Source of the DNA: Paeniglutamicibacter cryotolerans
Lineage (GTDB): Bacteria; Actinomycetota; Actinomycetes; Actinomycetales; Micrococcaceae
Assembly: GCF_014190875.1 (NCBI RefSeq)
Contig: NZ_JACHVS010000001.1
Span: 2,418,001-2,482,000 of the forward strand
DNA length: 64,000 nt
Direction of reading: 5' to 3'
This document shows, in pieces, positions 3,642-29,930 of the stretch. Every line of letters begins with the position of its first letter. Within the stretch, counting starts at the first letter, position 1. The notes under the pieces were generated by a model that was given only the letters and a program-made list of their open reading frames with translations, had not been told where the DNA came from and did not search any database. Both the position numbers and the translations under genes were made by a program.

Positions 3642-4304
3642 ATGAACGAAACACCCTGGACTCCCACTGTCATCTGGTCCAAGCCCGAGGCCGAACGTGC
3701 CGGCACCCCGCTGCTGGTGCTGTTGCATGGCTACCTCTCCAACGAACAGGACCTGATCGGCCTGGCCCGGCTGCTGCCTGAAGAATTCACCCTCGCCTCG
3801 GTGCGGGCCCCGCACGCGCTGGGCCCGGGGTACACCTGGTTCCCGCTGATGCAGGATGCCGACTATTCCTTCGGTGCCGTGAAGGCGGCCGTCGCTGAGC
3901 TGTGGTCCTGGCTGGAGCCGGTGGGGAAGAACCACACGTCCGTCTCGCTGCTGGGCTTCTCCATGGGCATGGCGATGGCCACCTCGGTGCTGCGCCATCA
4001 GCCGGCGGCCATTACGGCGGTGGTGGGCCTCTCCGGCTTCGCCGTTCCGAACCACGGGGACGCCTTCTTCGACGACGCGGCGGTGAAGGCCGTACAGACC
4101 CCGCTGTTCTGGGGCCGGGACCAAGCGGACCCGGTGATCACCCACGACAAGATCGAATACACCCATGCCTGGGCCACCGGGCATGTGGCGCTGACCAAGG
4201 TGCTCTACACGGACATGCTGCACTCGGTCAGCGAGCAGGAGATGGCCCACGTGCACGAGTTCCTGACCCATGTGCTGCTTAACGCGGCGTCATCCGGGAC
4301 GTGA
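3642..4304 (+). CDS. Alpha/beta-hydrolase, carboxylesterase/phospholipase type
   Basis: A 220-residue single-domain hydrolase. It has the oxyanion segment LLHGYLSNEQD near the N-terminus, the nucleophile elbow GFSMG, an Asp in WGRDQADPVI and the catalytic His in LHSVSEQE, which is the order of the small carboxylesterase / YpfH-like family. No signal peptide. The ATG at 3642 is preferred; an in-frame TTG at 3630 is possible, and no clear ribosome-binding site decides. A TAGCGT box at 3612-3617 could be the -10 element. It is followed immediately by a strong hairpin. Confidence 0.82.
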   Translation: MNETPWTPTVIWSKPEAERAGTPLLVLLHGYLSNEQDLIGLARLLPEEFTLASVRAPHALGPGYTWFPLMQDADYSFGAVKAAVAELWSWLEPVGKNHTSVSLLGFSMGMAMATSVLRHQPAAITAVVGLSGFAVPNHGDAFFDDAAVKAVQTPLFWGRDQADPVITHDKIEYTHAWATGHVALTKVLYTDMLHSVSEQEMAHVHEFLTHVLLNAASSGT

Positions 4305-4306
4305 TG

Positions 4307-4354
4307 AGCCCCACCTCCCTTGTGTCATTCGATTGACACAAGGGAGGTGGGGCT
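4307..4354. terminator. Perfect 21-bp inverted repeat, probable terminator
   Basis: Positions 4307-4327 and 4334-4354 are perfectly complementary with a 6-base loop. The arms begin 3 bases after the hydrolase stop, so a terminator is the simplest reading, although no T-run follows. The loop-proximal part of the arms (CTTGTGTCA / TGACACAAG) shares its CTTGT/ACAAG ends with the dyad just downstream, so a regulatory role is also possible. Confidence 0.7.
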
Positions 4355-4355
4355 G

Positions 4356-4380
4356 CTTGTATTACTTGAGTTGATACAAG
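4356..4380 (+). promoter_or_regulatory. Candidate GntR operator dyad
   Basis: CTTGTAT at 4356-4362 and ATACAAG at 4374-4380 form a dyad with an 11-base spacer, 25 bases before the ATG of the membrane-protein/GntR operon. A TTGACA hexamer at 4333-4338 overlaps the preceding hairpin and could serve as a -35 box. Short GntR regulators of the YtrA type usually control their own operon, so autoregulation at this dyad is the natural inference. Confidence 0.5.
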
Positions 4381-4404
4381 TATTGATCGGAAGAGGACCA
4401 GCAG

Positions 4405-5442
4405 ATGATGTCGCTCCTGCCCGTTGCCATGATCATCCTGGTGCCGCTGTGTGCCATCGTCCTGATCGCCGGGTTGTTCGCACGCCCCCGCGCCCGGGTG
4501 ACCGCCACCGAGGCGGCTGGGTTGCTGCCTCCCGAACGCGAGGCCGAACTGGCCGCCAAGCGCCGCCGCCAGGTGCTGGCCATGGCGGCGGCGATGATCG
4601 CCGGCTTCGTCGTCTGCGGCGCAGTGGCATCCCGTGGCCCGGTCGACACCGGGCTGATGGGCCTGCCCTTCGCATTGGCGATCCCGCTGGGAGCCATCGC
4701 CGGCCTGCTGGTTTTCGCCTTGATCTGGCGGCTGCGCTGGAACGACGGCGAGGCGCCGCGGCGCAGCGCCGAGCTTCAAACCCGCGAACCGTGGAGCTTC
4801 TCCACCCGCGCCCTGCTGCTGACGCCGCTGCTCGGCGGCGGAATACTGATTGCCGCGCTGCTGCTGGCCGGGCTGGCATCGGTGACCGACGAGAGCGGCA
4901 AGCACATTGGCCTGCCCGGCATCTCCCTCGCCGGCTGGGCCGAGGAGGACGGGCGGATCTTCGACGTGCAGTACCGCGAGGATGTCTTCGCTCCCTTCCC
5001 CGGCTGGTACTACGGGGTGCCGCTGATCATCTGCGTCGTGGTGCTGCTGGCCGGGCTCTACCTGCTCCTGCGCCGCATCGCCGGGGCCCCGCGCCCTCCG
5101 GAATCAGGGCTGTTGGCTGCCGACACCTTGCTGCGCCAGGGGGCATCGGAATTCGTCATGCTCTGGGTCGGGATGGCGTTCATCGCCCAGATGGCCGGCC
5201 TGGCCATCATCAGCGCGATCGCGTTCCAATCGATGTACCGGCGATCGGTGCCGCACCTGGATCTCGAGGGGATGCCACCGCAGGAAATCCTGCAGCCGGG
5301 CTACGGGCTGGGCATCGTGTTGGTATGCCTGGGGTTGGCGCTGCTGGTCGCCGCAGCCGTGCTGCTGGTGCGCCAGATCGTGCAGCTGGCAGCGGCCACC
5401 AGGGCCATCCGGTCCACGTCGGGGATGGAAGCCGCCCGGTGA
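4405..5442 (+). CDS. Polytopic membrane protein of unknown function, GntR-linked
   Basis: 345 residues with about six to seven hydrophobic segments (roughly 5-25, 60-80, 88-108, 135-157, 207-229, 253-275, 300-325) and a polar region between segments four and five containing PGWYYG. It resembles the membrane proteins that travel with YtrA-type GntR regulators; no transport or enzyme motif is visible. ATG at 4405 or the adjacent ATG at 4408 is preceded by AGAGGA. Its stop overlaps the GTG of the regulator by 4 bases, so the two form an operon. Confidence 0.75.
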   Translation: MMSLLPVAMIILVPLCAIVLIAGLFARPRARVTATEAAGLLPPEREAELAAKRRRQVLAMAAAMIAGFVVCGAVASRGPVDTGLMGLPFALAIPLGAIAGLLVFALIWRLRWNDGEAPRRSAELQTREPWSFSTRALLLTPLLGGGILIAALLLAGLASVTDESGKHIGLPGISLAGWAEEDGRIFDVQYREDVFAPFPGWYYGVPLIICVVVLLAGLYLLLRRIAGAPRPPESGLLAADTLLRQGASEFVMLWVGMAFIAQMAGLAIISAIAFQSMYRRSVPHLDLEGMPPQEILQPGYGLGIVLVCLGLALLVAAAVLLVRQIVQLAAATRAIRSTSGMEAAR

Positions 5443-11780: not shown

Positions 11781-12251
11781 TTACTTCACCTCCGCGCCGC
11801 TGCAGGCCAGCAACGGCCAGGGCGTGCTGACGATGGACCAGGAACCATAGGCCCCCTGCAGCTCGAAGGCGTCGGACGAAGTGTATTCGCCGGTCCCGAA
11901 AGGGCCGCTAGCCGAGCCCTGGGCCAGAGTGACCGAGACGGTGGACCGGGGACCGTCGATGAGCGTTGAGCCCAGGGTGATCCGCAGATCGGCAGCGCGC
12001 CGTTCGGTATCGGCGTACTGGCAGTCCTGCCTAGCCGTGGAGGTCTGATCCAGGAGCGCCGCGGCGCCCGCGTCGTCGCCCGCGAGCAGTGCCTGGGTGT
12101 AGCGCTGCACTGTGCCCTCGGGAGTTGCGGGATCCGGTGGCGGGGTGGTGCCCCGGGACAGGACGACGACGATGGAAAGTCCCACCAGGGTGCCGACCAC
12201 CCCCATCAGCGAATACATAAGCCCATTTTGTGACTTTAGACGAGTGACCAT
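11781..12251 (-). CDS. Membrane-anchored protein with extracytoplasmic domain
   Basis: 156 residues: a short basic N-terminus, one membrane helix (about 12-32), then a Pro-rich linker TPPPDPATPEGTV and a domain that begins YTQALLAGDDAGAAALLD, similar in style to small lumazine-binding / NTF2-like extracytoplasmic domains that use two cysteines (Cys in RQDCQYA and in LLACSG). Function unknown. Its stop touches the start of the large membrane protein, suggesting a complex of the two. ATG with GGAG upstream. Confidence 0.6.
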   Translation of the reverse strand: MVTRLKSQNGLMYSLMGVVGTLVGLSIVVVLSRGTTPPPDPATPEGTVQRYTQALLAGDDAGAAALLDQTSTARQDCQYADTERRAADLRITLGSTLIDGPRSTVSVTLAQGSASGPFGTGEYTSSDAFELQGAYGSWSIVSTPWPLLACSGAEVK

Positions 12252-12265
12252 GAGCTCATTCTCCG

Positions 12266-12409
12266 TCAGCGGGGCACCGGGTCAGTGGCCCGGCGCGCCC
12301 AAGAGCTGAGGGCACCCTGCCTATCCATGGTTCGGAACACCTTGGAGGTGATCTTCGCCAGACGGTCCGATAATCGACGCACAGCTGGCTTAGCAGCAGG
12401 CGTGCCCAT
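12266..12409 (-). CDS. Possible small basic protein (47 residues)
   Basis: An open frame ATG 12409 to TGA 12266-12268, encoding a peptide rich in Arg and Lys with a central amphipathic stretch (SDRLAKITSKVFRTMD). GAGAGA lies 4 bases before the ATG and a TACTAA box at 12434-12439 (minus strand) could be a -10 element. It ends 14 bases before the next gene of the same strand. No family recognised; it may equally be chance. Confidence 0.3.
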   Translation of the reverse strand: MGTPAAKPAVRRLSDRLAKITSKVFRTMDRQGALSSWARRATDPVPR

Positions 12410-12603
12410 TTTCTCTCGGACAACGTGGCTGTCTTAGTACGAAGTCGCAGCCATGAACCGTGCACTTGGATGCGGCAAGGATGTGAGCCTTGTTGAGCAC
12501 CGCCCGTCTTCCCAGAGGACATTCTGGGAAGACGGGTGGATGTGCTGGACACATGACATCCTGCCGGCTGGCCGAGCAAATCGAAACCAGTGTGCCGATG
12601 GCG
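12410..12603. other. Intergenic stretch without recognised gene
   Basis: Between the small ORF candidate and the cupin-like gene. Apart from the TACTAA box at 12434-12439 and the hairpin at 12503-12536 I see nothing; the open frames here on both strands have unlike-neighbour codon use and no family resemblance. It marks the boundary between the membrane-protein operon and the catabolic cluster. Confidence 0.5.
12503..12536. terminator. Perfect 14-bp hairpin, probable terminator of the Rieske operon
   Basis: CCCGTCTTCCCAGA at 12503-12516 and TCTGGGAAGACGGG at 12523-12536 with a 6-base loop. It lies 67 bases beyond the stop of the last gene of the minus-strand operon. Confidence 0.6.
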
Positions 12604-13095
12604 CTAGGGCACCCAGCCCAAGGCGGTGCGGCCCTTGAGCCGGATGACGGCCAGCGGCGTAGAGTCTGCACCCTCGGCCTCCAACGGAACCGAGAAGGGG
12701 TCATCGCCCTCCAGGATCAGCGCATCGAGCCGGCCCAGCTGGTGTCGTCCCTCGACCAGCAGTCCGGGGCCTCCGGAAAGCAGCACCATGATCTCCTGGG
12801 GCTGGCGCTTGAGTTCGGAGCGGGCCCCTACCTGGTGGATTTCCACCGAGGGCACCGCGGCGTGGGGAGAGCTGCGCACCATCACCTGTAGCACGCCGCC
12901 ATCGGAGAGTTTCAGTTCACCGCTGGCACCCAGCGCCTCGTCCGGGGCTGGCCGGGTCAGCGGTTCCCGGGTGTCCGGGGCCAGACGCACATCCCACTGC
13001 CAGCGTTCTCGGCCGTGGGTGTCGGGGGATGCCGCAATTTCCGTCTCTCCTGAGGGTTCTACGCGGTGTGCGTTGGCGCGCAGCAGCAGCCTCAC
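12604..13095 (-). CDS. Cupin-like protein, possibly HutD/Ves-related
   Basis: 163 residues, all beta-rich. The order W-Q-W-D-V-R-L-A, LKLSDGGVLQVMV, MVLLSGGPGLLVEG and DALILEGDDPFSV follows the two-sheet pattern of cupin proteins of the HutD/Ves type, but the diagnostic W-K-N-G-G motif of HutD is absent. I chose GTG 13095 because it overlaps the stop of the Rieske gene by 4 bases (GTGA); the frame itself stays open further upstream. As third gene of the operon it may bind or isomerise a pathway intermediate. Assignment of family is weak. Confidence 0.5.
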   Translation of the reverse strand: MRLLLRANAHRVEPSGETEIAASPDTHGRERWQWDVRLAPDTREPLTRPAPDEALGASGELKLSDGGVLQVMVRSSPHAAVPSVEIHQVGARSELKRQPQEIMVLLSGGPGLLVEGRHQLGRLDALILEGDDPFSVPLEAEGADSTPLAVIRLKGRTALGWVP

Positions 13096-14129
13096 GGTGC
13101 CGCTACCTTCTCGGGCACGGCGGCCGCGGCCTTGGCTTCGGCCGAAAGCAGCTGCTTCATCATCCGTCGTGCCTTGGCCACACCGGCATCCTGCGCAATC
13201 AACACGTCGGGCAGGTTCGACGGACGGCACTCCATCTTGACCTGCTGCAGCGCCAGGGCATCGGAGTCCTCGGTCAGTACCCCGCCGAGGCTCTCGGTGA
13301 GCAGCTCGTTCATCGCCTCATCGCCGACGGCGAAGTCGCGGCAGAAGGCGTAGAAGTACCATGCGGTGTTTTCGGTGATCGGGGTGATGGCGTTGAGTAC
13401 GCGCAGCAGGTGCCCGTCCTCGCGCTTGCCCCCGACCTCGACCACGCCGGCGTGGATCACGTGCAGCGAGGGCAGCTGGAAGACGGTGGTGTGCCAGCGG
13501 TCGACCCGCGTCATGCCGGTGGCCTTTTCAAAGAGCGGGGAGGGGTGGCATTCGGGCATCCACCGGTCCACCGAGACGGTGTTGCCATCGACCTCGACGG
13601 TGACCCCGTTTTCGTAGACGGCCTCGTCTCCGATGGTCGACTCGTGCAGGAAGCCCTCGTGGGTCAAATCCAGCAGGTTGTCGTGGATCAGGTCGGCGCT
13701 GCATTCGAACACGCGCTCATGGGTGACCCGGTCCCAAGCCGGATCGGTCATCCAGTGCGTGTCGGGTACCTCGGTGGTTTCGGCCAGCGCCGGATCGCCC
13801 ATCCAGACCCATACCCAGCGGTGGGATTCAACGACCGGGTAGGACTTGACCAGGGCGCGTTCTGGAATGCGTGCCTGGGCCGGGACCCTGACGCACACCC
13901 CGGCGCAGTTGTATTCGAAGCCGTGGTATCCGCATTGGATATTGTCCCCGACGATCCGGCCTTCCGAGAGCGGATAGGCGCGGTGGGCGCAACGGTCATC
14001 GAGCACCGCGATGGAGTCGTCCTTCTTGCGGAACAGGACGATGTCCTCGCCCAGTGCGGTGCGTTTGAGCGGCTCGCGGGTGACTTCTTCGGACAGGGCG
14101 ATGACATACCAAGCATTGCGTACGAACAT
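13092..14129 (-). CDS. Rieske non-heme iron oxygenase, VanA-like
   Basis: 345 residues. The Rieske [2Fe-2S] ligands are C-A-H in DRCAHRAYPLSEG (near residue 47) and C-G-Y-H in QCGYHGFEY (near residue 66). The mononuclear iron site is in NLLDLTHEGFLH (Asp, two His). N-terminal NAWYVIALSEEV is typical of VanA-type O-demethylases and ring hydroxylases. It needs a ferredoxin/reductase partner; none is encoded in this cluster, so electrons must come from elsewhere. The start lies 13 bases after the aminotransferase stop, in one operon. Confidence 0.9.
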   Translation of the reverse strand: MFVRNAWYVIALSEEVTREPLKRTALGEDIVLFRKKDDSIAVLDDRCAHRAYPLSEGRIVGDNIQCGYHGFEYNCAGVCVRVPAQARIPERALVKSYPVVESHRWVWVWMGDPALAETTEVPDTHWMTDPAWDRVTHERVFECSADLIHDNLLDLTHEGFLHESTIGDEAVYENGVTVEVDGNTVSVDRWMPECHPSPLFEKATGMTRVDRWHTTVFQLPSLHVIHAGVVEVGGKREDGHLLRVLNAITPITENTAWYFYAFCRDFAVGDEAMNELLTESLGGVLTEDSDALALQQVKMECRPSNLPDVLIAQDAGVAKARRMMKQLLSAEAKAAAAVPEKVAAP

Positions 14130-14142
14130 GGGTGGTTCTCCT

Positions 14143-15219
14143 TTAGCTGTGGTCGCTGGTTTCGAGGTGGTTCAGGGGAAGCAAGTGGTGCAGCGCATCG
14201 GCAAGCAGGCCGAGCCCGGCCTCGGTGGGCACGGAAATGCGCACGGTTCCCGGTGCGCCCAGTGCCGATCCGGGCCGGACCGAGACCCCGTGGGCCTGCA
14301 AGGCGGCAACGAAGCCGGCCTCGTCGGGAACCGGCACCAGGACGAAGTTTGCCTGGGAGTCGACGGCATGCAGCCGGTGGGATGCCAGTAGTGCGCTCAG
14401 TTCGGCGCGCAGCCGCAGCGTGTGTTCACGGACCGCATCGCGGTGGTTGGAATCATTCAGGGCATTGAGGGCGGCGGCCTGGGCCAGGGTTCCCACGGAG
14501 AAGGGGGCGCGGACCTTGCGCAGGGTGGCGATGACCTCCCGGGAGGCCACCAGGTAGCCGATGCGCAGTCCGGCCAGCCCATGGATCTTGGAGAAGGTGC
14601 GCAGCACGGCTATGCGACCACCCTCGATCAGTGGAATGGCGGTCATGGCATCAGGGTCGTCGGTGAAGTCGATATAGGCCTCGTCGACGACGACCAGTGC
14701 CGCGGGGCTTCGTGCGGCGAATTCCTGAATCTCCGCCCTGGACCGGATGGTACCGGTGGGGTTGTGCGGGTTGACGACATAGGCGATGTCGGCTCGAACA
14801 CGTGCCATGGCGGCCAGATCGTGCTTCCACTCGGTCAAGGGAACGCGGGTGACGCGCGCATTGACCGAAACCGCGCTGATCGCGTCGATTTGGTAGGCCG
14901 GGTCTGCGCAGACGGCATGACCGCCCTGTGCCAAGAAGGCGGTGGCCAGCAGGAAGATCAGCTCATCGGACCCGTTGCCGACCAGGATCTGTTCGGGGTC
15001 CACGCCGTGCAGTACGGCTAGTTCGGAGCGCAGGTTACCCGCCAGCGGGTCGGGGTAGCGGTGCAGTCCGGAGATGGCATCGGCAAGGGCCTGGCCCAGG
15101 TGTGCGCTGGCCCCGAGCGGGGATTCGTTGGCTGCCATGGAACCGTCTTCGGATCCCGAACCGGCTCCGGGCCGGTAGGCCTGGATCTCGTCCACCCAGG
15201 GGCGGGGTGCAATGGTCAT
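14143..15219 (-). CDS. HisC-like PLP aminotransferase
   Basis: 358 residues, aminotransferase fold type I of the histidinol-phosphate group: N-ES-P in AANESPLG, GNGSDELI, NPHNPTG, VDEAYIDF, the PLP lysine in RTFSKIHGLAGLRIGY (core TFSKIHGLAG) and a C-terminal Arg region. Its context (oxygenase, amino-acid importer, IclR regulator) argues for a catabolic amino acid, perhaps histidine-like or aromatic, rather than histidine synthesis. The ATG at 15219 has AAGGAG 9 bases upstream; a longer open frame through the promoter region is not real. Confidence 0.85.
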   Translation of the reverse strand: MTIAPRPWVDEIQAYRPGAGSGSEDGSMAANESPLGASAHLGQALADAISGLHRYPDPLAGNLRSELAVLHGVDPEQILVGNGSDELIFLLATAFLAQGGHAVCADPAYQIDAISAVSVNARVTRVPLTEWKHDLAAMARVRADIAYVVNPHNPTGTIRSRAEIQEFAARSPAALVVVDEAYIDFTDDPDAMTAIPLIEGGRIAVLRTFSKIHGLAGLRIGYLVASREVIATLRKVRAPFSVGTLAQAAALNALNDSNHRDAVREHTLRLRAELSALLASHRLHAVDSQANFVLVPVPDEAGFVAALQAHGVSVRPGSALGAPGTVRISVPTEAGLGLLADALHHLLPLNHLETSDHS

Positions 15220-15302
15220 TCCCGGTACTCCTTCGACTGCGGTATTTTTCGTGGCGGCGTTTCTTCTGAGAGGGTGCCGAATGTGCTGGCATTCCACTGT
15301 TC

Positions 15303-15318
15303 GTTCACATATGTGAAT
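15303..15318. promoter_or_regulatory. Operator copy 1 (IclR-type palindrome)
   Basis: GTTCACATATGTGAAT; the core TTCACATATGTGAA is a perfect 14-base palindrome, identical to copy 3. It lies downstream of the leftward promoter. Confidence 0.7.
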
Positions 15319-15321
15319 GAA

Positions 15322-15337
15322 GTACACGTATGCGAAC
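15322..15337. promoter_or_regulatory. Operator copy 2 (IclR-type palindrome)
   Basis: GTACACGTATGCGAAC matches copy 1 at 11 of 16 positions and keeps the dyad (GT-CAC-TATG-GAA). It is 19 bases from copy 1 and directly abuts the leftward -10 box. Confidence 0.65.
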
Positions 15338-15366
15338 ACGCTAGGAGTTGGCGGACTCGCTGTCAA
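15338..15366 (-). promoter_or_regulatory. Promoter of aminotransferase/Rieske operon
   Basis: On the minus strand TTGACA (15366-15361), a 17-base spacer and TAGCGT (15343-15338). The transcript would start inside operator copy 2, so a bound repressor would block it. Confidence 0.6.
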
Positions 15367-15415
15367 CAGGTGTTCCCGAGTGGAAGAAACATTGCGTCCA
15401 AAGTGGGAATGGGCG

Positions 15416-15444
15416 TTGACAGTGAGTTGAGACACACCTAATGT
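15416..15444 (+). promoter_or_regulatory. Promoter of importer operon
   Basis: TTGACA at 15416-15421 and TAATGT at 15439-15444 with a 17-base spacer (CCTAAT two bases earlier is an alternative -10). Operator copy 3 begins 21 bases downstream. Confidence 0.6.
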
Positions 15445-15464
15445 GATTCGACATGTGGCACACC

Positions 15465-15480
15465 GTTCACATATGTGAAT
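15465..15480. promoter_or_regulatory. Operator copy 3 (IclR-type palindrome)
   Basis: GTTCACATATGTGAAT, an exact second copy of site 1, 162 bases away and between the rightward promoter and the binding-protein gene, where binding would act as a road-block. Confidence 0.7.
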
Positions 15481-15523
15481 GAACTGATTGCACTCGTCGC
15501 CACCAAACACCGGAGGATTACAA

Positions 15524-16453
15524 ATGCGTTCTACCCCGAAGTCACGCAACCCCCGCAAGGCCGCACTGCTCGCCCTGCCGATGGTGGCAGGGCTCCTGCT
15601 CGCAGGATGCTCATCATCCGATGCCCCGAAGGAGGACGTGCAGGCCGAGGCCGCAACCAACTCGGCGCCGCTGTTCGCAGAGCTGCCCGAGGCAGTCCAG
15701 AAGGCCGGGACCATCCAGATCGGTTCGGCGATCGATTACCCGCCGTTCGAGTACTACGAGGAAAACGGGGACCTGGCAGGGTTCGAGTACGAGCTTTCCA
15801 AGGAACTGGAAAAGCAGCTCGGGGTCAGCTTCAAGTGGAACAACGCCAGCTTCGATACGCTGCTGCCGGCGCTGACCACCAAGCGCTATGACATCATCTT
15901 CGGCGCTGTCAACGACACCAAGGAGCGCGAGGAAAGTTTCGACATGATTTCCTACCTGCAGTCCTCCCAGGGCCTGGTATCCAAAGCCGGCGTCGATACC
16001 GGCATCAAGACGGTTGAAGATCTCTGCGGCAAATCCATTGCGGCGGTCCGCGGCGGCATCCAGCCCCAGTACCTGGAGGAGCGTTCCAAGGTATGCGTCA
16101 CCGATGGCATGAAGCCCATTGAGGTGTTGACCTTCGACGGCAACTCGCAGGAGCAGCTGGCCGTGAAGCAAGGCCGCGCAGTGGCAATGCTTGAGAACTA
16201 CCCGACCGCCGCCTACTTCGCAAAGAACTCCGAAGGTTCGCTGGAAGTCGTTCCCGATCTTCAGGTTGAAAAGCGCTTCTTCTCCATGGTGCTCAGCAAG
16301 GAGCAGACGGAGCTGCGCGACGTCCTGCAGAAGGGCTGGCAGGCCATCATCGACGACGGCAGCTACGACGAAATCCTGAAGAAGTGGGACCTGGATGCCA
16401 TCGGCATCAAGACCTCCGTCGTGAACCCGGTTTCAGAAGGCATCGAGCCGTAA
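15524..16453 (+). CDS. Amino-acid ABC transporter, substrate-binding lipoprotein
   Basis: 309 residues: signal peptide with lipobox LLAGC, then a type-II periplasmic-binding-protein fold with IGSAIDYPPFEYYEENGDLAGFEYEL (quoted core DYPPFEYYEENGDLAGFEYE) and YDIIFGAVNDTKEREE, typical of polar amino-acid binders (family 3). The Asp near VNDTKEREE normally binds the alpha-amino group, so the ligand probably has an amino-acid head. GGAGGA lies 6 bases before the ATG at 15524. First gene of the importer operon. Confidence 0.93.
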   Translation: MRSTPKSRNPRKAALLALPMVAGLLLAGCSSSDAPKEDVQAEAATNSAPLFAELPEAVQKAGTIQIGSAIDYPPFEYYEENGDLAGFEYELSKELEKQLGVSFKWNNASFDTLLPALTTKRYDIIFGAVNDTKEREESFDMISYLQSSQGLVSKAGVDTGIKTVEDLCGKSIAAVRGGIQPQYLEERSKVCVTDGMKPIEVLTFDGNSQEQLAVKQGRAVAMLENYPTAAYFAKNSEGSLEVVPDLQVEKRFFSMVLSKEQTELRDVLQKGWQAIIDDGSYDEILKKWDLDAIGIKTSVVNPVSEGIEP

Positions 16454-16456
16454 CCC

Positions 16457-17422
16457 ATGTCGATCCACCCGCCAAGAGACCTGAACGAAACGGAGCACAG
16501 CGTGCTTGAAAAGGAAACCACAACGGAGCCGGCCAGGTTGGAGACTCCGGTCCCGGCCAAGAAATACACGGTCGTCCCGCTGCGCTACCCGTGGCGCTGG
16601 ATTACCGCCGCCCTGGTCCTTGGCGGGCTGGGCCTCGTCGGCCGCGCCTTCCTGGCTGCCGACATCAATTACGACGTGGTCATCAAGTACCTGACCAACG
16701 CCGGAATCCTGACCGGGGTGCGCAACACGCTGGTCCTGCTGCTGGCGGCCATGGCCGTGGGCTTGGTCCTGGGCGTACTCACCGCGGTGATGCGCCAGTC
16801 CCCGAACCCGGTGCTGCGCTGGGTGGGCGGTGCCTACGTCTGGCTCTTCCGCGGCACCCCGCTGCTGGTGCAGCTGCTGATCTGGTTCAACCTCTCCATC
16901 ATCTTCGAGACCTTCACCATCCCTGGCCTGTTCTCCATCCCCATGAACACCCTGATGACCCCGTTCGTTGCCGCGTTGCTGGGCCTGGGCATCAATGAAG
17001 GCGCCTACATTTCGGAAATCGTCCGCGGCGGCATCCTCGCCGTGGACCACGGTCAGCGCGAGGCAGCCTCTGCCATCGGCATGTCCCGGGCCAAGACCAT
17101 GCGCCGGATCGTGCTGCCCCAGGCGATGCGGGTCATCGTCCCGCCGCTGGGCAACGAGTTCATTTCATGCCTGAAGTTCACTTCGCTGGCCTACACCATT
17201 TCCTACAGCGAACTGCTGCACTCGGCCAACAAGATCTACACGGCGAACTTCAAGGTGATCGAGCTGCTGTTCACCGCCGCCATCTGGTACATCGCATTGA
17301 CCACCGTGTTCAGCCTCTTCCAGCAGCTGCTCGAAGACCGGTTGAGCCGCGGGGTTCCCGGGGCGCAAGTCGGGTTCATCGAACGCCTGCGCCGCAACCT
17401 ATCCCTCAGGAGGGCCTCATGA
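16457..17422 (+). CDS. Amino-acid ABC transporter permease
   Basis: 321 residues, with a cytoplasmic N-terminal extension of about 55 residues before the first helix and the family-3 EAA loop [15 protein letters not shown]...[10 protein letters not shown]. One permease probably forms a homodimer. It begins 3 bases after the binding-protein stop. An in-frame GTG at 16501 with GGAG upstream is an alternative start that would remove 15 residues. Confidence 0.92.
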
Positions 17423-18186
17423 GCACCGACGTCATCGTCCGCGCCGAACAAGTCACCAAGTCCTTCGGGGACCTGCAGATCCTCAACGGCATCGACTTGG
17501 AGGTCTCCCGCGGCCAGGTGCTCTGCATCATCGGGCCCTCGGGATCGGGAAAGTCCACGTTCCTGCGTTGCATCAACCACCTGGAAAAGATCGACGGCGG
17601 CCGCCTGATCGTCAACGGTTCCCTGGTGGGATACCGGGAGGTGGGGGACAAGCTCTACGAACTGCCGGACCGGGCAGTGTGCTCGGAGCGGGCCAATATC
17701 GGCATGGTCTTCCAGCACTTCAACCTGTTCGCCCACAAGACGGCCCTGGAGAATGTCATCGAGGGTCCGATCCAGGTCAAGGGAGTGTCCAAGAAGAAGG
17801 CCCTGGCCGATGGCCTGGCGTTGCTCGAACGCGTCGGGTTGGGCCACCGCGCCCACGCTTACCCGCGCTCGATGTCCGGAGGGCAGCAGCAACGCGTGGC
17901 CATTGCCCGGGCGTTGGCCATGGAGCCGAGCCTGATGCTCTTCGACGAGCCCACCTCGGCCTTGGATCCGGAGTTGGTCGGAGAGGTACTCGATGTCATG
18001 AAGGACCTGGCCGCGTCGGGCATGACCATGGTGGTCGTTACCCACGAAATGGGTTTTGCGCGTGAGGTTGCCGACGGCATAGTGTTCATTGACCAAGGTC
18101 GAGTTCTCGAATCGGGGACGCCGGCGGAGCTCTTGGGCAATCCCCGCGAGGAACGCACCAAGGCGTTCCTCAACGCGGTTCTGTAA
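17419..18186 (+). CDS. Amino-acid ABC transporter ATP-binding protein
   Basis: 255 residues, GlnQ type. Walker [10 protein letters not shown]-loop FQHFNLF, signature MSGGQQQR, Walker B LMLFDEP and switch His VVTHEM are all intact. An insertion of about 15 residues between Walker A and the Q-loop ([16 protein letters not shown]) is seen in several actinobacterial members. ATG overlaps the permease stop (ATGA) with AGGAGG upstream. Confidence 0.95.
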
Positions 18187-18211
18187 GAAACAGGGAAAGA
18201 AGGAGACGGCC

Positions 18212-18946
18212 ATGAGCACCTCGGTCGTACGGGCCATGCGGATCCTCGAGTCATTATCCGGCGCCAGCCGGCCCATGACGCTGACCGCAATCGCCGATGA
18301 ACTGGAAATCCCGAAAAGCACGGCGCATTCGATCCTCAAGGCCCTGGCCAGTCGAGGTTTCTTGGACGTCGACGAATACCAGGGATACACGGTGGGGCTC
18401 AAGGCCTTCGAGGTGGGTGCTTCGCACCTGCGCTCCACCAATGCCGTGGAAGTAGTGGTTCCCCAGCTCGTCGAACTCACACGGGCGTTGGGCATCACGT
18501 CCCACTACGCGATTCTCGACGGTGCCGACGCTGTCTACCTCTGCAAGGAGGATCCCCCCGGGCTGGGCCTGAAACTGGCCAGCTCGGTGGGGGCCCGTCT
18601 TCCGGCGCATACGACGGCGGTGGGGAAAGCGGCGCTCGCCTGGCTGCCCGAAGCCAACCAGGAAGGCTATCTCGCGGCCCTTGGCGGCAGGAGGGCGGGC
18701 AAATTGGCGGTGGATCGCCTGCGCGGTGAACTGACCGCGGTCCGCGAACGCGGATACAGCAGTGATGACGGGGACACCGCACTGGGCGTGCGATGCGTCG
18801 CAGCCCCGGTCAGGTACCGCTCCGGTCCGCCGGGATCCATCGGTGTGAGCTATCTGGTCGGCTCCAAGGTCGAAGACCAGAAGGTCGTTGACGGGGTTGT
18901 TCAAGCGGCACGCCGGGCCAGCGAACTCCTCGCGCACCGGACGTAG
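18212..18946 (+). CDS. IclR-family transcriptional regulator
   Basis: 244 residues: N-terminal winged helix (TLTAIADELEIPKSTAHSIL, read as LTAIADELEIPKSTAHSIL) and C-terminal IclR ligand-binding domain (LPAHTTAVGKAALAWLP, RGYSSDDGDTALGVRCVAAPV in part). It is the last gene of the importer operon, with AAGGAG before its ATG. The three palindromes at 15303-15480 are the likely binding sites; the ligand is presumably the imported compound or its oxo acid. Confidence 0.93.
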   Translation: MSTSVVRAMRILESLSGASRPMTLTAIADELEIPKSTAHSILKALASRGFLDVDEYQGYTVGLKAFEVGASHLRSTNAVEVVVPQLVELTRALGITSHYAILDGADAVYLCKEDPPGLGLKLASSVGARLPAHTTAVGKAALAWLPEANQEGYLAALGGRRAGKLAVDRLRGELTAVRERGYSSDDGDTALGVRCVAAPVRYRSGPPGSIGVSYLVGSKVEDQKVVDGVVQAARRASELLAHRT

Positions 18947-18983
18947 GAGGGTTCCGGGCCTGGAAGGCCCGGAACCCTCCTAC
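18943..18983. terminator. Perfect 18-bp hairpin containing the IclR stop codon
   Basis: Arms 18943-18960 and 18966-18983 are fully complementary with loop TGGAA; the TAG stop (18944-18946) is inside the left arm. No T-run follows. Confidence 0.7.
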
Positions 18984-19092
18984 CGCCGCTGATCCCGGCA
19001 ACGACCATCACGAACCACCGAACGAACGGGTACCGAAATACCATGAACCACACAGTGATGGCCCTGCTGGGCCCGACAGGTAGGACTACACC

Positions 19093-20331
19093 ATGAAGCT
19101 TGTCGACGCGCTGGAACTCATCTCCCCACGGTTGCCCAGCGGAACGCTGCAGGAACGCCGGCTGCGCTCCTGCCACACCGTGGATGATCTGCGCCGAGCG
19201 GCAAAGCGGCTCCTGCCCCGTTCGGTTTTCGACTATGTGGACGGTGGGGCAGACCAAGAGCTGTCGCTTGCAGCCAATCCGACGGCCTTCACCGGATACC
19301 GGTACCATCCCAAAGTCATGCGGGACGTATCGAATCCGAATATCACAGGATCGTTTTTCGGACGCACAGCAGCGCTTCCGCTGGGGCTGGCACCCACCGG
19401 TTACACCCGGATGATGCATCCCGAGGGGGAGCCGGCCGTGGGTCGTGCAGCCAATACGCAGCGGATACCCTATGTGCTCTCCACCATGGCCAGTACCTCT
19501 ATCGAAGACCTGGCCACGGCTGTCGGGCCCGACTCGGATTTGTGGTTCCAGCTCTACGTGTGGAAAGACCGGGAATTGACCCGGCAGATGATCCACCGTG
19601 CCCACGCCAGCGGCTACCGGGTGCTGGAAATAGCGGTTGACACCGCCGTATCGGGAAACCGGGTGCGCGATAGGCGCAACGGTTTGACGATCCCGCCGGC
19701 GCTGACATTGGGCAGCCTGCTGGACATCGGCATGAAGCCCAACTACTGGATGCGGATGCTGCGCGGGGAAAAGCTCGAGTTCGCCAATGTGCGTTCCGAC
19801 GGACCCGGTGGCGGCCACACCATCGCGGGGATCTCCGAACAATTCGACCCGTCGGTCAACTGGGACGACCTGGCCTGGATTCGCGAGGCTTGGGTGGGCC
19901 CCATGGTACTGAAGGGACCGTTGGGCCCCGAGGACGCACTCCGTGCCAAAAGCCTGGGCATAGACGGGGTTCACCTGTCCAACCACGGGGGACGCCAGCT
20001 GGACCGCACCGTGGCCCCGGTGGAATTGATCGCCCCGGTGCGCGCAGCCGTCGGTGATGGCTTTGGCGTCTTCGTCGACTCGGGGATCCGCCACGGCTCG
20101 GACATCGCCACCGCCATCGCGCTGGGTGCCGATGCCGCCTTCGTCGGCCGGCCCTATCTGTGGGCGCTGGTTGCCGGGGGCGAAGACGGCGTCGAGCACC
20201 TGGTGAACACGCTGGCCGCCGAGTTCACCCGTACCCTGCAACTGCTCGGCGTAGGCTCGGTGGACGAACTGCGTGCTCATGGCCCCGAACTGCTCAGCGC
20301 CCTGAGCCCCGCCACCGCTGCGCTGCTGTAA
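19093..20331 (+). CDS. FMN-dependent alpha-hydroxy-acid dehydrogenase (LldD-like)
   Basis: 412 residues of the L-lactate dehydrogenase / glycolate oxidase family: SVFDYVDGGADQELSL, PLGLAPTGYTRMMHPEGE (core LAPTGYTRMMHPEGE), the catalytic His and substrate Arg in LSNHGGRQLD, and the FMN phosphate segment VDSGIRHGSDIATAIALGAD (core DSGIRHGSDIA). It oxidises an L-2-hydroxy acid to the 2-oxo acid; the substrate is open. It follows the IclR operon after 146 bases holding the hairpin, and probably has its own promoter. Confidence 0.88.
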   Translation: MKLVDALELISPRLPSGTLQERRLRSCHTVDDLRRAAKRLLPRSVFDYVDGGADQELSLAANPTAFTGYRYHPKVMRDVSNPNITGSFFGRTAALPLGLAPTGYTRMMHPEGEPAVGRAANTQRIPYVLSTMASTSIEDLATAVGPDSDLWFQLYVWKDRELTRQMIHRAHASGYRVLEIAVDTAVSGNRVRDRRNGLTIPPALTLGSLLDIGMKPNYWMRMLRGEKLEFANVRSDGPGGGHTIAGISEQFDPSVNWDDLAWIREAWVGPMVLKGPLGPEDALRAKSLGIDGVHLSNHGGRQLDRTVAPVELIAPVRAAVGDGFGVFVDSGIRHGSDIATAIALGADAAFVGRPYLWALVAGGEDGVEHLVNTLAAEFTRTLQLLGVGSVDELRAHGPELLSALSPATAALL

Positions 20332-20368
20332 CTTCTAGCAATCCCACCCCGAAAGGATCCAGCAACCG

Positions 20369-21757
20369 ATGGACATCGTTGAACAGCTGACCCGAGCACT
20401 TCCAGCCGGCACCGTGATCACCGATCCGGTGGCGCTCGACGCCTGCCGCACCGACCGCTCGGGACACCTCTCCTGCGGGCGCCCGCTGGCCCTGGTCGAG
20501 GCCCGCAGCATCGAAGACGTGCAGGAGGTCTGCCGGATCGCCACGGCCACCAATACCCCGGTGGTCTCCCGCGGTGCCGGAACCGGGCTGGCCGGTGGCG
20601 GAATCGCCGGCACCGGGGAAATCGTGCTTTCCACGCTGCACATGAACCGCATCTTGGAAGTATCCACCGCCAACCAGCTCGCTGTGGTTGAACCCGGAAT
20701 CATCAACGGGGAGATGAACCGGGCGCTCTTCGAGCACGGCATGTGGTGGGCCCCGGACCCGGCCTCCAAGGACATCGCCACTGTCGGCGGGAACATCGCG
20801 ATGAACGCCGGGGGATTGCTCTGCGCCAAGTACGGGGTCACCCGAGAAGCGGTCCTGGCTTTGAAGGTGGTACTGGCCGACGGCCGGCTGATCTCCGTGG
20901 GCCACCGCACCGTCAAGGGCGTGACCGGATACGACCTGTGCGCGCTGATGATCGGCTCCGAAGGGACGCTGGGCGTGATCGTGGAGGCAACGCTGAAGCT
21001 GCGTCCGCTCGTCACCGGGAACGTGGCCACGATCGCCGCCTACCTGGACTCAGTGGAAACCGGTGCCTCCATTGCGGCGCGGATCAGCGCTGCGGGACTG
21101 CAGCCGGCGATCATGGAATTGCTGGACCGGCGTTCGCTTGAGTGCCTGGACGCCTACACCGGGGGATCGCTGCTGAGCCGTGGCAACGCGTACCTGCTGA
21201 TCCAGTGCGACGGGGCGGCGGCCGAGGCCGAGGCGGCTGCCATGCTGGCGATCATCCGCGAGGCCGGGGCACAGGCGGAGACCACCACCGATCCGGTCCT
21301 CGCCGACGAATGGGTCCATGTTCGCCGGCAGGTCTTCCCTTCATTGGAGGCACAGGGGACGCTGCTGGTCGAGGATGTGGCGGTGCCACGCGAGCAGATG
21401 CCGGCGATGTTCGCCAAGCTCGCGCAGTTGGAGGAAAAGTACGGGATTTCAATCCCCAGTAGTGCCCACGCCGGTGACGGGAACCTGCATCCCTGCTTCA
21501 TCTTCCAGGGCGAGGACGTGCCGCAGATGATCTGGGACGCCGCAGGGGAGATGTTTGCCCACGCGCTGGAACTGGGCGGTACCCTGACGGGCGAACACGG
21601 CATCGGGGTGCTGAAGAAGCGCTGGCTCGGCGATGAGCTCGGCGATGTGCAGCTGATGTTGCAGCGTCAGATCAAGGCAGTGTTCGACCCCGCCGGGCTG
21701 CTGAACCCGGGTAAGGTGCTCGATCCGCTGGTGCAGGGGGCACCTGCCGTTTGCTGA
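20369..21757 (+). CDS. FAD-linked 2-hydroxy-acid dehydrogenase (GlcD-like)
   Basis: 462 residues: VAO-type FAD domain with VSRGAGTGLAGGGIAG, TVGGNIAMNAGG, and TVKGVTGYDLC, then the C-terminal cap with SSAHAGDGNLHPC and LGGTLTGEHGIG. The family oxidises D-2-hydroxy acids (D-lactate, glycolate, 2-hydroxyglutarate). GlcE/GlcF partners are absent, so a single-subunit D-lactate-dehydrogenase-like enzyme is likely. Together with the upstream L-specific enzyme it would handle both configurations of a hydroxy acid. AAAGGA precedes the ATG. Confidence 0.88.
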   Translation: MDIVEQLTRALPAGTVITDPVALDACRTDRSGHLSCGRPLALVEARSIEDVQEVCRIATATNTPVVSRGAGTGLAGGGIAGTGEIVLSTLHMNRILEVSTANQLAVVEPGIINGEMNRALFEHGMWWAPDPASKDIATVGGNIAMNAGGLLCAKYGVTREAVLALKVVLADGRLISVGHRTVKGVTGYDLCALMIGSEGTLGVIVEATLKLRPLVTGNVATIAAYLDSVETGASIAARISAAGLQPAIMELLDRRSLECLDAYTGGSLLSRGNAYLLIQCDGAAAEAEAAAMLAIIREAGAQAETTTDPVLADEWVHVRRQVFPSLEAQGTLLVEDVAVPREQMPAMFAKLAQLEEKYGISIPSSAHAGDGNLHPCFIFQGEDVPQMIWDAAGEMFAHALELGGTLTGEHGIGVLKKRWLGDELGDVQLMLQRQIKAVFDPAGLLNPGKVLDPLVQGAPAVC

Positions 21758-21855
21758 TCCTGCCGGAGGACCCGATGCCTGACGCGGGATAGGCGCAGGG
21801 CTCCGGAAACCGGCGGGTAAATCGCCGGTGGCCGGCAGCCATGCCCGCGGGCGGG

Positions 21856-21884
21856 GTCCTTCCCCGGGACCTCCGGGGGAGGAC
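21856..21884. terminator. GC-rich hairpins after the GlcD-like gene
   Basis: GTCCTTCCCC at 21856-21865 pairs with GGGGGAGGAC ending at 21883 or 21884 (one wobble). A smaller hairpin CCGGCG/CGCCGG lies at 21810-21828. No T-run. Confidence 0.45.
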
Positions 21885-21927
21885 CCGGAGCGGTGAGCAT
21901 TCTCATGGTGATTGATTTGTCCGGGTT

Positions 21928-21936
21928 TGAGATAAT
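21928..21936 (+). promoter_or_regulatory. Extended -10 box for leaderless dusB
   Basis: TGAGATAAT, i.e. TG-N-GATAAT. The GTG start at 21943 is 6 bases downstream, where transcription should begin; the GGAG in between is too close to serve as ribosome-binding site. Confidence 0.65.
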
Positions 21937-21942
21937 GGAGAA

Positions 21943-23139
21943 GTGACTGTTACCGCACCCGCCCCCGAAGAATCCGTACCGGCCCCCATTCGGCTGGAGC
22001 TGCCCCCGCTGAAGCTGGGCAAGCACACCATTGACGTTCCGGTGATCCTGGCCCCCATGGCGGGCATCACCAACCGCGCCTTCCGCCGGCTTTGCCGCGA
22101 GTACGGCGGTGGGGTGTACGTCACCGAGATGGTCACCTCCCGGGCCCTGGTGGAACGCAACGAGGAATCGATGCGCATCATCTCGCACGACCCGGACGAG
22201 GAACTGCGCTCGGTGCAGCTCTACGGAGTCGATCCCAAGACCGTCGGCGCAGCGGTGCGCATGATCGTGGAGGAAGACCGTGCCGACCACATCGATTTGA
22301 ACTTCGGCTGCCCGGTGCCCAAGGTCACCCGCAAGGGTGGTGGCTCGGCGCTGCCGTGGAAGACGGACCTGTTTACCTCCATCATCAAGGCGGCAACCAC
22401 CGAGGCGGCACGCGGCGAGGTTCCATTGACCATCAAGATGCGCAAGGGCATTAACGAGGACCACCTCACCTACATCGAATCGGGCAAGATCGCCCGCGAC
22501 CACGGCGTCGCCGCCGTCGCCCTGCACGGTCGCACCGCCAGCCAGTACTACTCCGGCAAGGCCGACTGGGACGCCATCGCCAAGCTGCGCGAATCGTTGC
22601 CCGACGTCCCGGTGCTGGGCAACGGCGACATCTTCAGCGCAGAGGACGCGGTGGCCATGGTCGCGCAGACCGGAGTCGACGGCATCGTCGTGGGCCGCGG
22701 CTGCATGGGCCGGCCGTGGCTGTTCGGCGACCTGCAGGCCGCCTTCGAGGGCACGGACGTGCGCCACCGCCCGGGCATGGCCGAGGTGGCGGCATCCGTC
22801 TACCGCCACGCCGAACTGCTCGTGGACTACTTCGGCGACGAGGGCAAGGGCCTGCGCGACATGCGTAAGCACATGGCCTGGTACTTCAAGGGCTACCAGG
22901 CCGGCGGAGAACTGCGCGCCAGCCTGGCCCAGGTCTCCACGCTCGAGGAGTTGAGCGGGCTGCTGGCGCTGCTGGACATGTCCGTCGGCTACCCGGGCAA
23001 GGACGCCGAGGGCACCCGCGGCCGCGCCGGCTCGCCCAAGGCCACCAAGCTGCCCGACGGCTGGCTCGATAGCCGCGAAATGGATGAGAAGCACAAGGCC
23101 ATGATCTCCGCGGCGGAACTGGACATTTCCGGTGGCTGA
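21943..23139 (+). CDS. dusB: tRNA-dihydrouridine synthase
   Basis: 398 residues, FMN enzyme that reduces uridine to dihydrouridine in tRNA. It has APMAGITNRAFRRLCREYGG, the active-site motif LNFGCPVPKVTRKGGGSAL (Cys in FGCPVPKVTRKG), KMRKGIN, HGRTASQYYSGKADW and GNGDIFS. A tail with a KATKLPDGWLDS segment follows. GTG start, probably leaderless. Its end overlaps dgt by 8 bases. Confidence 0.93.
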   Translation: MTVTAPAPEESVPAPIRLELPPLKLGKHTIDVPVILAPMAGITNRAFRRLCREYGGGVYVTEMVTSRALVERNEESMRIISHDPDEELRSVQLYGVDPKTVGAAVRMIVEEDRADHIDLNFGCPVPKVTRKGGGSALPWKTDLFTSIIKAATTEAARGEVPLTIKMRKGINEDHLTYIESGKIARDHGVAAVALHGRTASQYYSGKADWDAIAKLRESLPDVPVLGNGDIFSAEDAVAMVAQTGVDGIVVGRGCMGRPWLFGDLQAAFEGTDVRHRPGMAEVAASVYRHAELLVDYFGDEGKGLRDMRKHMAWYFKGYQAGGELRASLAQVSTLEELSGLLALLDMSVGYPGKDAEGTRGRAGSPKATKLPDGWLDSREMDEKHKAMISAAELDISGG

Positions 23140-26474: not shown

Positions 26475-26547
26475 TCCTCCGTAGCTCAATTGGCAGAGCA
26501 TTCGACTGTTAATCGAAGGGTTACTGGTTCAAGTCCAGTCGGAGGAG
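26475..26547 (+). tRNA. tRNA-Asn (GTT), CCA encoded
   Basis: 73 bases with acceptor TCCTCCG/CGGAGGA, D-arm GCTC/GAGC, anticodon GTT at 26508-26510, T-arm with GGTTCAAGTCC. CCA follows at 26548-26550. Identical in sequence to the gene at 29851. Confidence 0.97.
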
Positions 26548-26558
26548 CCAAAACGGGA

Positions 26559-29850: not shown

Positions 29851-29923
29851 TCCTCCGTAGCTCAATTGGCAGAGCATTCGACTGTTAATCGAAGGGTTAC
29901 TGGTTCAAGTCCAGTCGGAGGAG
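29851..29923 (+). tRNA. tRNA-Asn (GTT), second copy, CCA not encoded
   Basis: Base-for-base copy of the gene at 26475 over all 73 positions, anticodon GTT at 29884-29886. The next bases are CGT instead of CCA, so CCA must be added after transcription. Confidence 0.97.
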
Positions 29924-29930
29924 CGTATAT

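Follow-up and report, generated by a model that had tools for sequence, protein, structure and literature searches.

What compound is degraded by a gene cluster that joins a Rieske oxygenase to an aminotransferase, an importer and two 2-hydroxy-acid dehydrogenases? The question is raised by positions 12604-21757 of a 64,000-nucleotide stretch of the Paeniglutamicibacter cryotolerans genome (contig NZ_JACHVS010000001.1, positions 2,418,001 to 2,482,000; the whole stretch is called the window), where nine open reading frames were verified, forming two divergent operons followed by the FMN and FAD 2-hydroxy-acid dehydrogenase genes. From its sequence and that of related loci we take the cluster to be a conserved catabolic unit, uncharacterised so far, and the reading that we prefer, with a probability of about 0.4, is that its substrate is a 2-hydroxy acid bearing a histidine-like (imidazole) side chain, which would be processed via the oxo acid with the Rieske enzyme acting as a demethylase. 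Among the parts of this reading, the 2-hydroxy-acid logic is well supported by the comparisons discussed here, the imidazole side chain moderately so and N-demethylation weakly so. The nine proteins were assigned to families with Pfam and NCBIfam models, and the features are as follows.

12604..13095, minus strand: HutD-like bicupin, 163 aa, with a GTG start at 13095 that overlaps the Rieske stop
13092..14129, minus strand: Rieske non-haem iron oxygenase, DdmC/VanA-like, 345 aa (Rieske PF00355 and VanA_C PF19112)
14143..15219, minus strand: HisC-like PLP aminotransferase, 358 aa (Aminotran_1_2; slightly under the NCBIfam cut-off for biosynthetic HisC)
15304..15317, no strand: exact palindrome TTCACATATGTGAA, presumed operator (sequence match)
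15323..15336, no strand: third, degenerate copy of the palindrome with 3 mismatches (sequence match)
15466..15479, no strand: second exact palindrome TTCACATATGTGAA, presumed operator (sequence match)
15524..16453, plus strand: family-3 solute-binding lipoprotein (SBP_bac_3; Asn130, Asn225, Arg135)
16457..17422, plus strand: ABC permease, polar-amino-acid type (BPD_transp_1)
17419..18186, plus strand: ABC ATPase, GlnQ type (ABC_tran)
18212..18946, plus strand: IclR-family regulator (HTH_IclR and IclR_C)
19093..20331, plus strand: FMN L-2-hydroxy-acid dehydrogenase/oxidase, LldD (FMN_dh; closest solved relatives by sequence are (S)-mandelate dehydrogenases)
20369..21757, plus strand: FAD D-2-hydroxy-acid dehydrogenase, GlcD type (FAD_binding_4 and FAD-oxidase_C)

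The minus-strand operon runs from the aminotransferase through the Rieske oxygenase to the HutD-like gene (15219 down to 12604), and the plus-strand operon from the binding protein through permease and ATPase to IclR (15524-18946), with the FMN and then the FAD dehydrogenase gene next (19093-21757). The start of the HutD-like gene has been corrected to the GTG at 13095 and that of the aminotransferase gene to 15219. A first-pass annotation of this DNA had described two divergent operons with matching operators and two dehydrogenase genes; this is borne out, with the reading frames where it had placed them.

That the nine genes belong together follows from their conservation. By sequence, Arthrobacter and Paeniglutamicibacter are the named genera nearest to the window. 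We ran a pattern-based scan over 84,980 species, each represented by one genome, and took loci whose Rieske protein is at least 71% identical as orthologous. There are eight, which we call type A: in a Micrococcaceae bin, Arthrobacter sp. AQ5-05, Paenarthrobacter sp. PH39-S1, A. terrae, Arthrobacter sp. H14-L1, Segeticoccus, Flexivirga and Planosporangium. All nine genes are present in seven of them (five Micrococcaceae, Flexivirga and Planosporangium), and in the eighth, from Segeticoccus (L036), the contig stops right after the Rieske gene. Five loci keep the divergent order of the window, while Flexivirga and Planosporangium have the genes on a single strand in the order importer, IclR, aminotransferase, Rieske, HutD-like, reductase, GlcD, LldD. 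Apart from the dehydrogenases, the type A proteins of these last two are 39-73% identical to those of the window, the HutD-like protein having the lowest value. We have very little doubt that the cluster is a conserved functional unit, as the first-pass annotation had proposed; it had held that a neighbourhood conserved in no relative would count against the proposal, and no such loss was seen. In a word search of the literature, no title or abstract opening among those listed described such a gene set.

The nature of the imported ligand is best approached through the binding protein. The window protein is closest to glutamine- and arginine-binding proteins, but lacks the Ser/Thr and Asp pair that marks the amino-acid-binding members of family 3: all nine type A binding proteins have Asn at both alpha-amine positions (Asn130 and Asn225 in the window). 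The carboxylate Arg (Arg135) is invariant, as are Tyr72 and Phe110, which we take to correspond to the aromatic positions of LAO. In a first alignment with 13 other binding proteins the Asp was kept in 13/13, and Ser or Thr was found in all 12 that reach the other position. Taken together, all 34 other binding proteins of the fetched loci, many of them closely related to each other, keep the Asp in each of the 33 that reach that position and have Ser (23), Thr (9) or Gly (2; L123, L124) at the other. In LAO and HisJ, according to the extracts used, the alpha-amine of the ligand is held by Ser72 and Asp161 (PMC4192606; alpha-amine sites also PMC5740067), the loss of both residues is given as the probable reason why NocT does not bind arginine (PMC4192606), and the octopine-binding OccJ has Asn202 in place of LAO Asp161 (PMC5740067). 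Since Asn/Asn replaces Ser/Thr and Asp, the ligand is probably a carboxylic acid that lacks a free primary alpha-amine. 2-Hydroxy acids, 2-oxo acids and N-substituted amino acids answer to this, and we think it likely that a 2-hydroxy (or 2-oxo) acid is what is imported. The earlier term "amino-acid importer" is thus right for the family and probably wrong for the ligand, as the alpha-amine lock has been lost from the pocket.

The two dehydrogenases lead in the same direction. GlcD and LldD both have the domains of their families, and LldD has the SNHGGRQ motif, which presumably holds the catalytic histidine. The Flexivirga and Planosporangium enzymes share 68% (GlcD) and 63% (LldD) identity with each other, but only 43-49% (GlcD) and 48-51% (LldD) with their Micrococcaceae type A counterparts, which is no more than they share with background proteins. 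Each search listed 119 other proteins that are closer to the window's enzymes, with at least 62% identity for GlcD and at least 54% for LldD. Quick trees, unrooted and with 60 of these 119 proteins (every other one on the list, chosen by likeness to the window's enzymes) as background, have a branch separating the Flexivirga/Planosporangium pair from the six Micrococcaceae and 60 background proteins, with SH-aLRT values of 100 (GlcD) and 99 (LldD). The L-type and the D-type dehydrogenase thus each appear to have joined the cluster twice, and such repeated recruitment of both classes makes it likely that the function includes oxidising a 2-hydroxy acid in both its configurations. The earlier proposal of a 2-hydroxy acid of either configuration, converted through the oxo acid, gains support from this and from the change in the binding site. 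Outside type A, GlcD adjoins a paralogous cluster, type B (described below), in G780 (L154), and in two related genomes (L123, L124) LldD lies near type B.

The side chain is suggested by the small protein and by the neighbourhood. Fold comparison gives the small protein the bicupin fold of HutD, and its Pfam HutD score is below gathering (17.5 against 25 bits; 22.2 bits for the Planosporangium homologue, L038); it is therefore classed as HutD-like and not as HutD proper. In Planosporangium, hut genes stand directly beside the type A cluster (IclR, HutH, HutU, M20 and the start of HutF), and in G021 they stand beside a paralogous Rieske-HutD cluster (HutI, M20, HutU, HutH). P. cryotolerans has its own hut cluster 17.7 kb upstream of the nine genes, and it is there, not within the nine-gene cluster, that histidine ammonia-lyase and urocanase are encoded. 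An imidazole-type side chain, suggested already in the first-pass annotation, is moderately supported by the HutD fold and the hut neighbours, and we lean slightly towards it.

The Rieske protein has CxH at 47, CxxH at 66, a mononuclear D..H....H motif and the VanA_C domain of the VanA/DdmC type, and among solved structures DdmC and 7qwt (by its title a Rieske (2Fe-2S) domain protein) come closest to it in sequence. Next to a relative at 41% identity there is a reductase annotated as PDR/VanB, in surroundings that we read as a ferulate cluster. A match at E <= 1e-60 was found in 47 plasmid records, every one below 60% identity, and the two plasmid clusters inspected read as one ring-hydroxylation cluster and one VanA/ferulate cluster. 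A HutD-like partner is present in 34 of the 40 rows of the Rieske clade. Demethylation is presumably the likely chemistry of this family, and N-demethylation of the present substrate is a tentative proposal, to which we would give rather less than even odds.

Such an oxygenase raises the matter of its reductase. The genome has eight matches to a VanB-type reductase at E <= 1e-15, none of them within the window (C1:2418001-2482000), so that the first-pass annotation was right in finding no reductase there, and the mapped surroundings (14-21 kb) of the five Micrococcaceae type A clusters showed none either. The extra gene of the Flexivirga cluster (L037) is a VanB-type reductase with Fer2 and NAD-binding domains, and its Planosporangium counterpart (L038) is 66% identical. 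For the Micrococcaceae we look to type B, in which GntR is divergent from a Rieske gene, a HutD-like gene, often a DoeB-like deacylase, an importer that keeps Asp at the amine site, and a VanB-type reductase. A type B Rieske is present in all six Micrococcaceae type A carriers (G000, G004, G005, G778-G780; G776 and G777 are genomes G005 and G004 again, and carriers are counted once), although these are not six independent events, as the carriers fall in about two clades. In a sample of 294 genomes type B Rieske was found in 21 and type A in 5, all within the 21, leaving 16 of 289 non-carriers with type B. The type B reductase was seen in five of the six carriers, the contig of the sixth ending short of it, and Flexivirga and Planosporangium, which have a reductase within the cluster, gave no second match at E <= 1e-95 (for Planosporangium, 8 of 9 candidates scored). 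The missing reductase is probably that of the type B cluster elsewhere in the genome; the donor can only be inferred, because two further reductases of the same genome are 67% identical to it. As to type B itself, the substrate is perhaps an N-acylated amino acid. The type B cluster of P. cryotolerans (L111 4179-10405) has its reductase at 4179-5156, a DoeB-like deacylase at 222 of 402.7 bits and an importer with the amine-site Asp; in a genome of the Flexivirga family a gene that by eye is creatinase- or ectoine-hydrolase-like (L157 5771-7111) lies near type B. Two VanB-type reductases of P. cryotolerans (L172 9457-10464 and L173 9601-10608), about 0.67 Mb apart, have identical protein ends, and by eye there is no oxygenase beside the second.

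For regulation we have the palindromes. TTCACATATGTGAA occurs exactly at 15304 and 15466 within the 304-bp divergent intergenic region; the only further site in the window with up to 2 mismatches is at 51341, and 2,215,095 bases of other loci have one such site. All eight orthologous control regions carry the palindrome, in one to three copies each with 1 to 4 mismatches; the best copies have 1, 1, 2, 2, 2 and 2 in L031-L036 (Micrococcaceae and Segeticoccus), 4 in Flexivirga (L037) and 3 in Planosporangium (L038). Since random 350-bp stretches have up to 3 mismatches in 19/3000 cases and up to 4 in 83/3000, the copies of Flexivirga and Planosporangium are weak. The IclR protein may well be what binds the palindromes. 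Rfam models gave no match in 12000-22000, and a search for sigma-70 promoters found none (mean for shuffled sequence 1.3). Elsewhere in the window there are two tRNA-Asn(gtt) genes on the same strand 3.4 kb apart (26475-26550 and 29851-29924).

The pathway that we propose would then run as follows. The ABC system would import the 2-hydroxy acid, as the pocket suggests, and the FMN enzyme would oxidise the L form and the FAD enzyme the D form to the 2-oxo acid, as one would expect from their families and from the fact that both were recruited repeatedly. The HisC-like aminotransferase would convert this to the amino acid. The Rieske oxygenase, with the VanB-type reductase of the type B cluster, would strip a ring methyl, most likely the N-methyl of an N-methyl-imidazole-lactate or -histidine, and the demethylated product would pass into the hut pathway, whose genes are 17.7 kb upstream. 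IclR would govern both divergent operons via the palindromes, and the HutD-like protein, judging by its fold, could be a ligand-binding accessory.

Several observations weigh against this reading. The HMMER alignment of the binding protein with 4zv1 has a one-residue gap that puts Glu224 rather than Asn225 opposite the Asp, although Asn225 is the better choice in the family alignments and in the ungapped ones with 5t0w and 5tuj. With trees that are unrooted and a background chosen by likeness to the window's enzymes, the dehydrogenase pattern could possibly be due to outward transfer from the lineage of this cluster. An hhalign comparison of the HutD-like family with true HutD (only 4 rows) gave no profile match, at a probability of 0.3%. 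HutH, HutU and HutI were not seen in 14 further loci, for each of which 12-20 kb was fetched, type B is distant from hut in G014, G250 and G000, the Flexivirga type A cluster is beside kynA/kynU and not hut, and HutU is common in the group regardless (43 of 58 relatives). Segeticoccus (G781) has type A with no type B match.

Other explanations have to be set against the same data. The Flexivirga cluster begins about 0.6 kb past the tryptophan 2,3-dioxygenase and kynureninase genes, the FMN enzyme is closest to mandelate dehydrogenases, DdmC and the 41%-identical ferulate-cluster relative point to methoxy-arenes, and the second-best solved relative of the aminotransferase, 4r2n, is titled putative phenylalanine aminotransferase, all of which would fit an aryl- or indole-lactate (or its amino acid) with the Rieske enzyme hydroxylating or O-demethylating the aromatic ring. 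We nonetheless find such a substrate unlikely, with kynA/kynU in one of 37 mapped loci against several hut genes in two (L038, L112), the HutD fold of the small protein, and no gene for aromatic ring cleavage among the nine. It could also be argued that N-methylhistidine is imported and demethylated to histidine, the hydroxy-acid enzymes serving only to recover lactates formed by side reduction; the amine-site Asp of type B importers and the one type B cluster that adjoins hut are in keeping with this, but both alpha-amine residues are lost in all nine type A binding proteins, and we rate it as quite unlikely.

An opine-like ligand, an N-substituted histidine or other amino acid that the Rieske enzyme would cleave by oxidative N-dealkylation, would account for the Asn that OccJ, in the extract used, and the cluster protein have at the same alpha-amine position (PMC5740067). 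It leaves unexplained why two 2-hydroxy-acid dehydrogenases, one for each stereoisomer, should have been recruited repeatedly, there is no opine oxidase family among the nine genes, and we consider it improbable. Finally the locus could consist of two unrelated neighbours, with the Rieske/importer operons on the one hand and, on the other, a lactate/glycolate dehydrogenase pair of central metabolism, as the dehydrogenases start 146 bp past iclR, may have their own promoter and have very numerous close homologues; but the pair accompanies the cluster in all seven complete loci, in two gene orders and apparently from two origins, which makes mere adjacency highly improbable. A trimethyl betaine such as hercynine was set aside as ligand because a betaine cannot be transaminated.

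Besides the clusters of types A and B there are other islands with related genes. At 272.9 bits against a cut-off of 276.55, the aminotransferase narrowly misses the NCBIfam hisC equivalog, and the genome has five other relatives at E <= 1e-15. An island in the same genome (L172 1668-10464; C1:1684500-1704400) combines a HutH-like lyase and an IclR with an amino-acid importer, a HisC-like aminotransferase, a VanB-type reductase and a P450, the last of which shares 54 and 57% identity with P450s that lie near the Rieske-HutD clusters of G161 and G203. Three type A genomes (L138-L140; L138 6670-17800, the one locus scanned with family models) have HutH-like, HutU-like, HutI, HutF and M20 genes that diverge from genes for a HisC-like aminotransferase and an importer; in L139 there is, judged by eye, a GlcD-like remnant at 15201-15737 as well. 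At the position that we take, from the SH motif, to be the active-site His82/83, five altered lyases have Asn (4, including that of L172) or Asp (1), and six of six ordinary HutH proteins have His. Changing this His to Leu in the Geobacillus enzyme is stated, in the extract used, to abolish activity on histidine (PMC11432326). With the His replaced, plain histidine is probably not the substrate of the altered lyases. An altered lyase is found in all six Micrococcaceae type A genomes (G000, G004, G005 as a fragment, G778-G780), but the link with type A is weak because 5 of 12 genomes of the genus without type A have one too. The carriers G778-G781 (Paenarthrobacter, Arthrobacter, Segeticoccus) have a second urocanase-like gene. 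An ergothioneine route finds no support in G778, as the L138 enzyme is above the hutU cut-off (621.5 of 375) and far below those of the two thiourocanate models (615.5 of 880; 578.1 of 930); the Segeticoccus gene beside HutI (L141 7463-10685) has higher scores with the thiourocanate hydratase models (751.8 of 880, 744.4 of 930) than with hutU (713.5 of 375), though still under the thiourocanate cut-offs.

Methylated histidines and their lactates derive from muscle protein, anserine and excreta. On their degradation by bacteria our word searches gave a single title. Beliaeva, Atac and Seebeck (2022) reportedly treat bacterial N-tau-methylhistidine degradation. Activity of a histidine ammonia-lyase on N-tau-methylhistidine is credited to that work in an extract of PMC11432326. 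Since 1-methyl-5-imidazolelactate, a metabolite mentioned in the mammalian metabolomics literature, is named in 10 papers listed by a literature search, such a substrate exists in nature, and we infer that soil bacteria meet it. One might suppose that the HutD-paired Rieske clade as a whole demethylates a ring nitrogen of N-methyl-histidine-type compounds, with a division of labour in which the window branch takes the 2-hydroxy acid (1-methyl-5-imidazolelactate, say), the paralogous branch takes the amino acid, and the altered-lyase islands, one of them in the same genome, take other isomers; as a whole this scheme is speculative and rather unlikely. If true, an entire clade of Rieske oxygenases would gain a substrate class and a marker, the HutD-like partner, and if the ligand is as we propose, the two-Asn change would provide a sequence test for family-3 importers of ligands other than free amino acids.

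With regard to known systems, the binding protein has the fold and carboxylate Arg of LAO, HisJ and GlnBP and differs in having Asn at both alpha-amine positions; with OccJ it has fold and Arg in common and also the Asn at LAO position 161. The oxygenase resembles the O-demethylases of vanillate (VanAB) and dicamba (DdmC) in its Rieske and VanA_C domains and, in the Flexivirga and Planosporangium clusters, in having a VanB-type reductase gene with it, but it is at most 44% identical to the closest relatives found outside its clade, and that clade is mostly HutD-like-paired. With the hut pathway (HutH/U/I/F or G, HutD) the cluster has in common an accessory protein of the HutD fold and physical proximity in two genera, and a histidine-type product of the cluster would enter that pathway; in place of lyase, urocanase and imidazolonepropionase it has an oxygenase, an aminotransferase and hydroxy-acid dehydrogenases. 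N-tau-methylhistidine degradation, as far as the extracts describe it, likewise handles a methylated histidine and uses a lyase, whereas the present cluster, with no lyase, has a Rieske oxygenase, an aminotransferase and 2-hydroxy-acid dehydrogenases.

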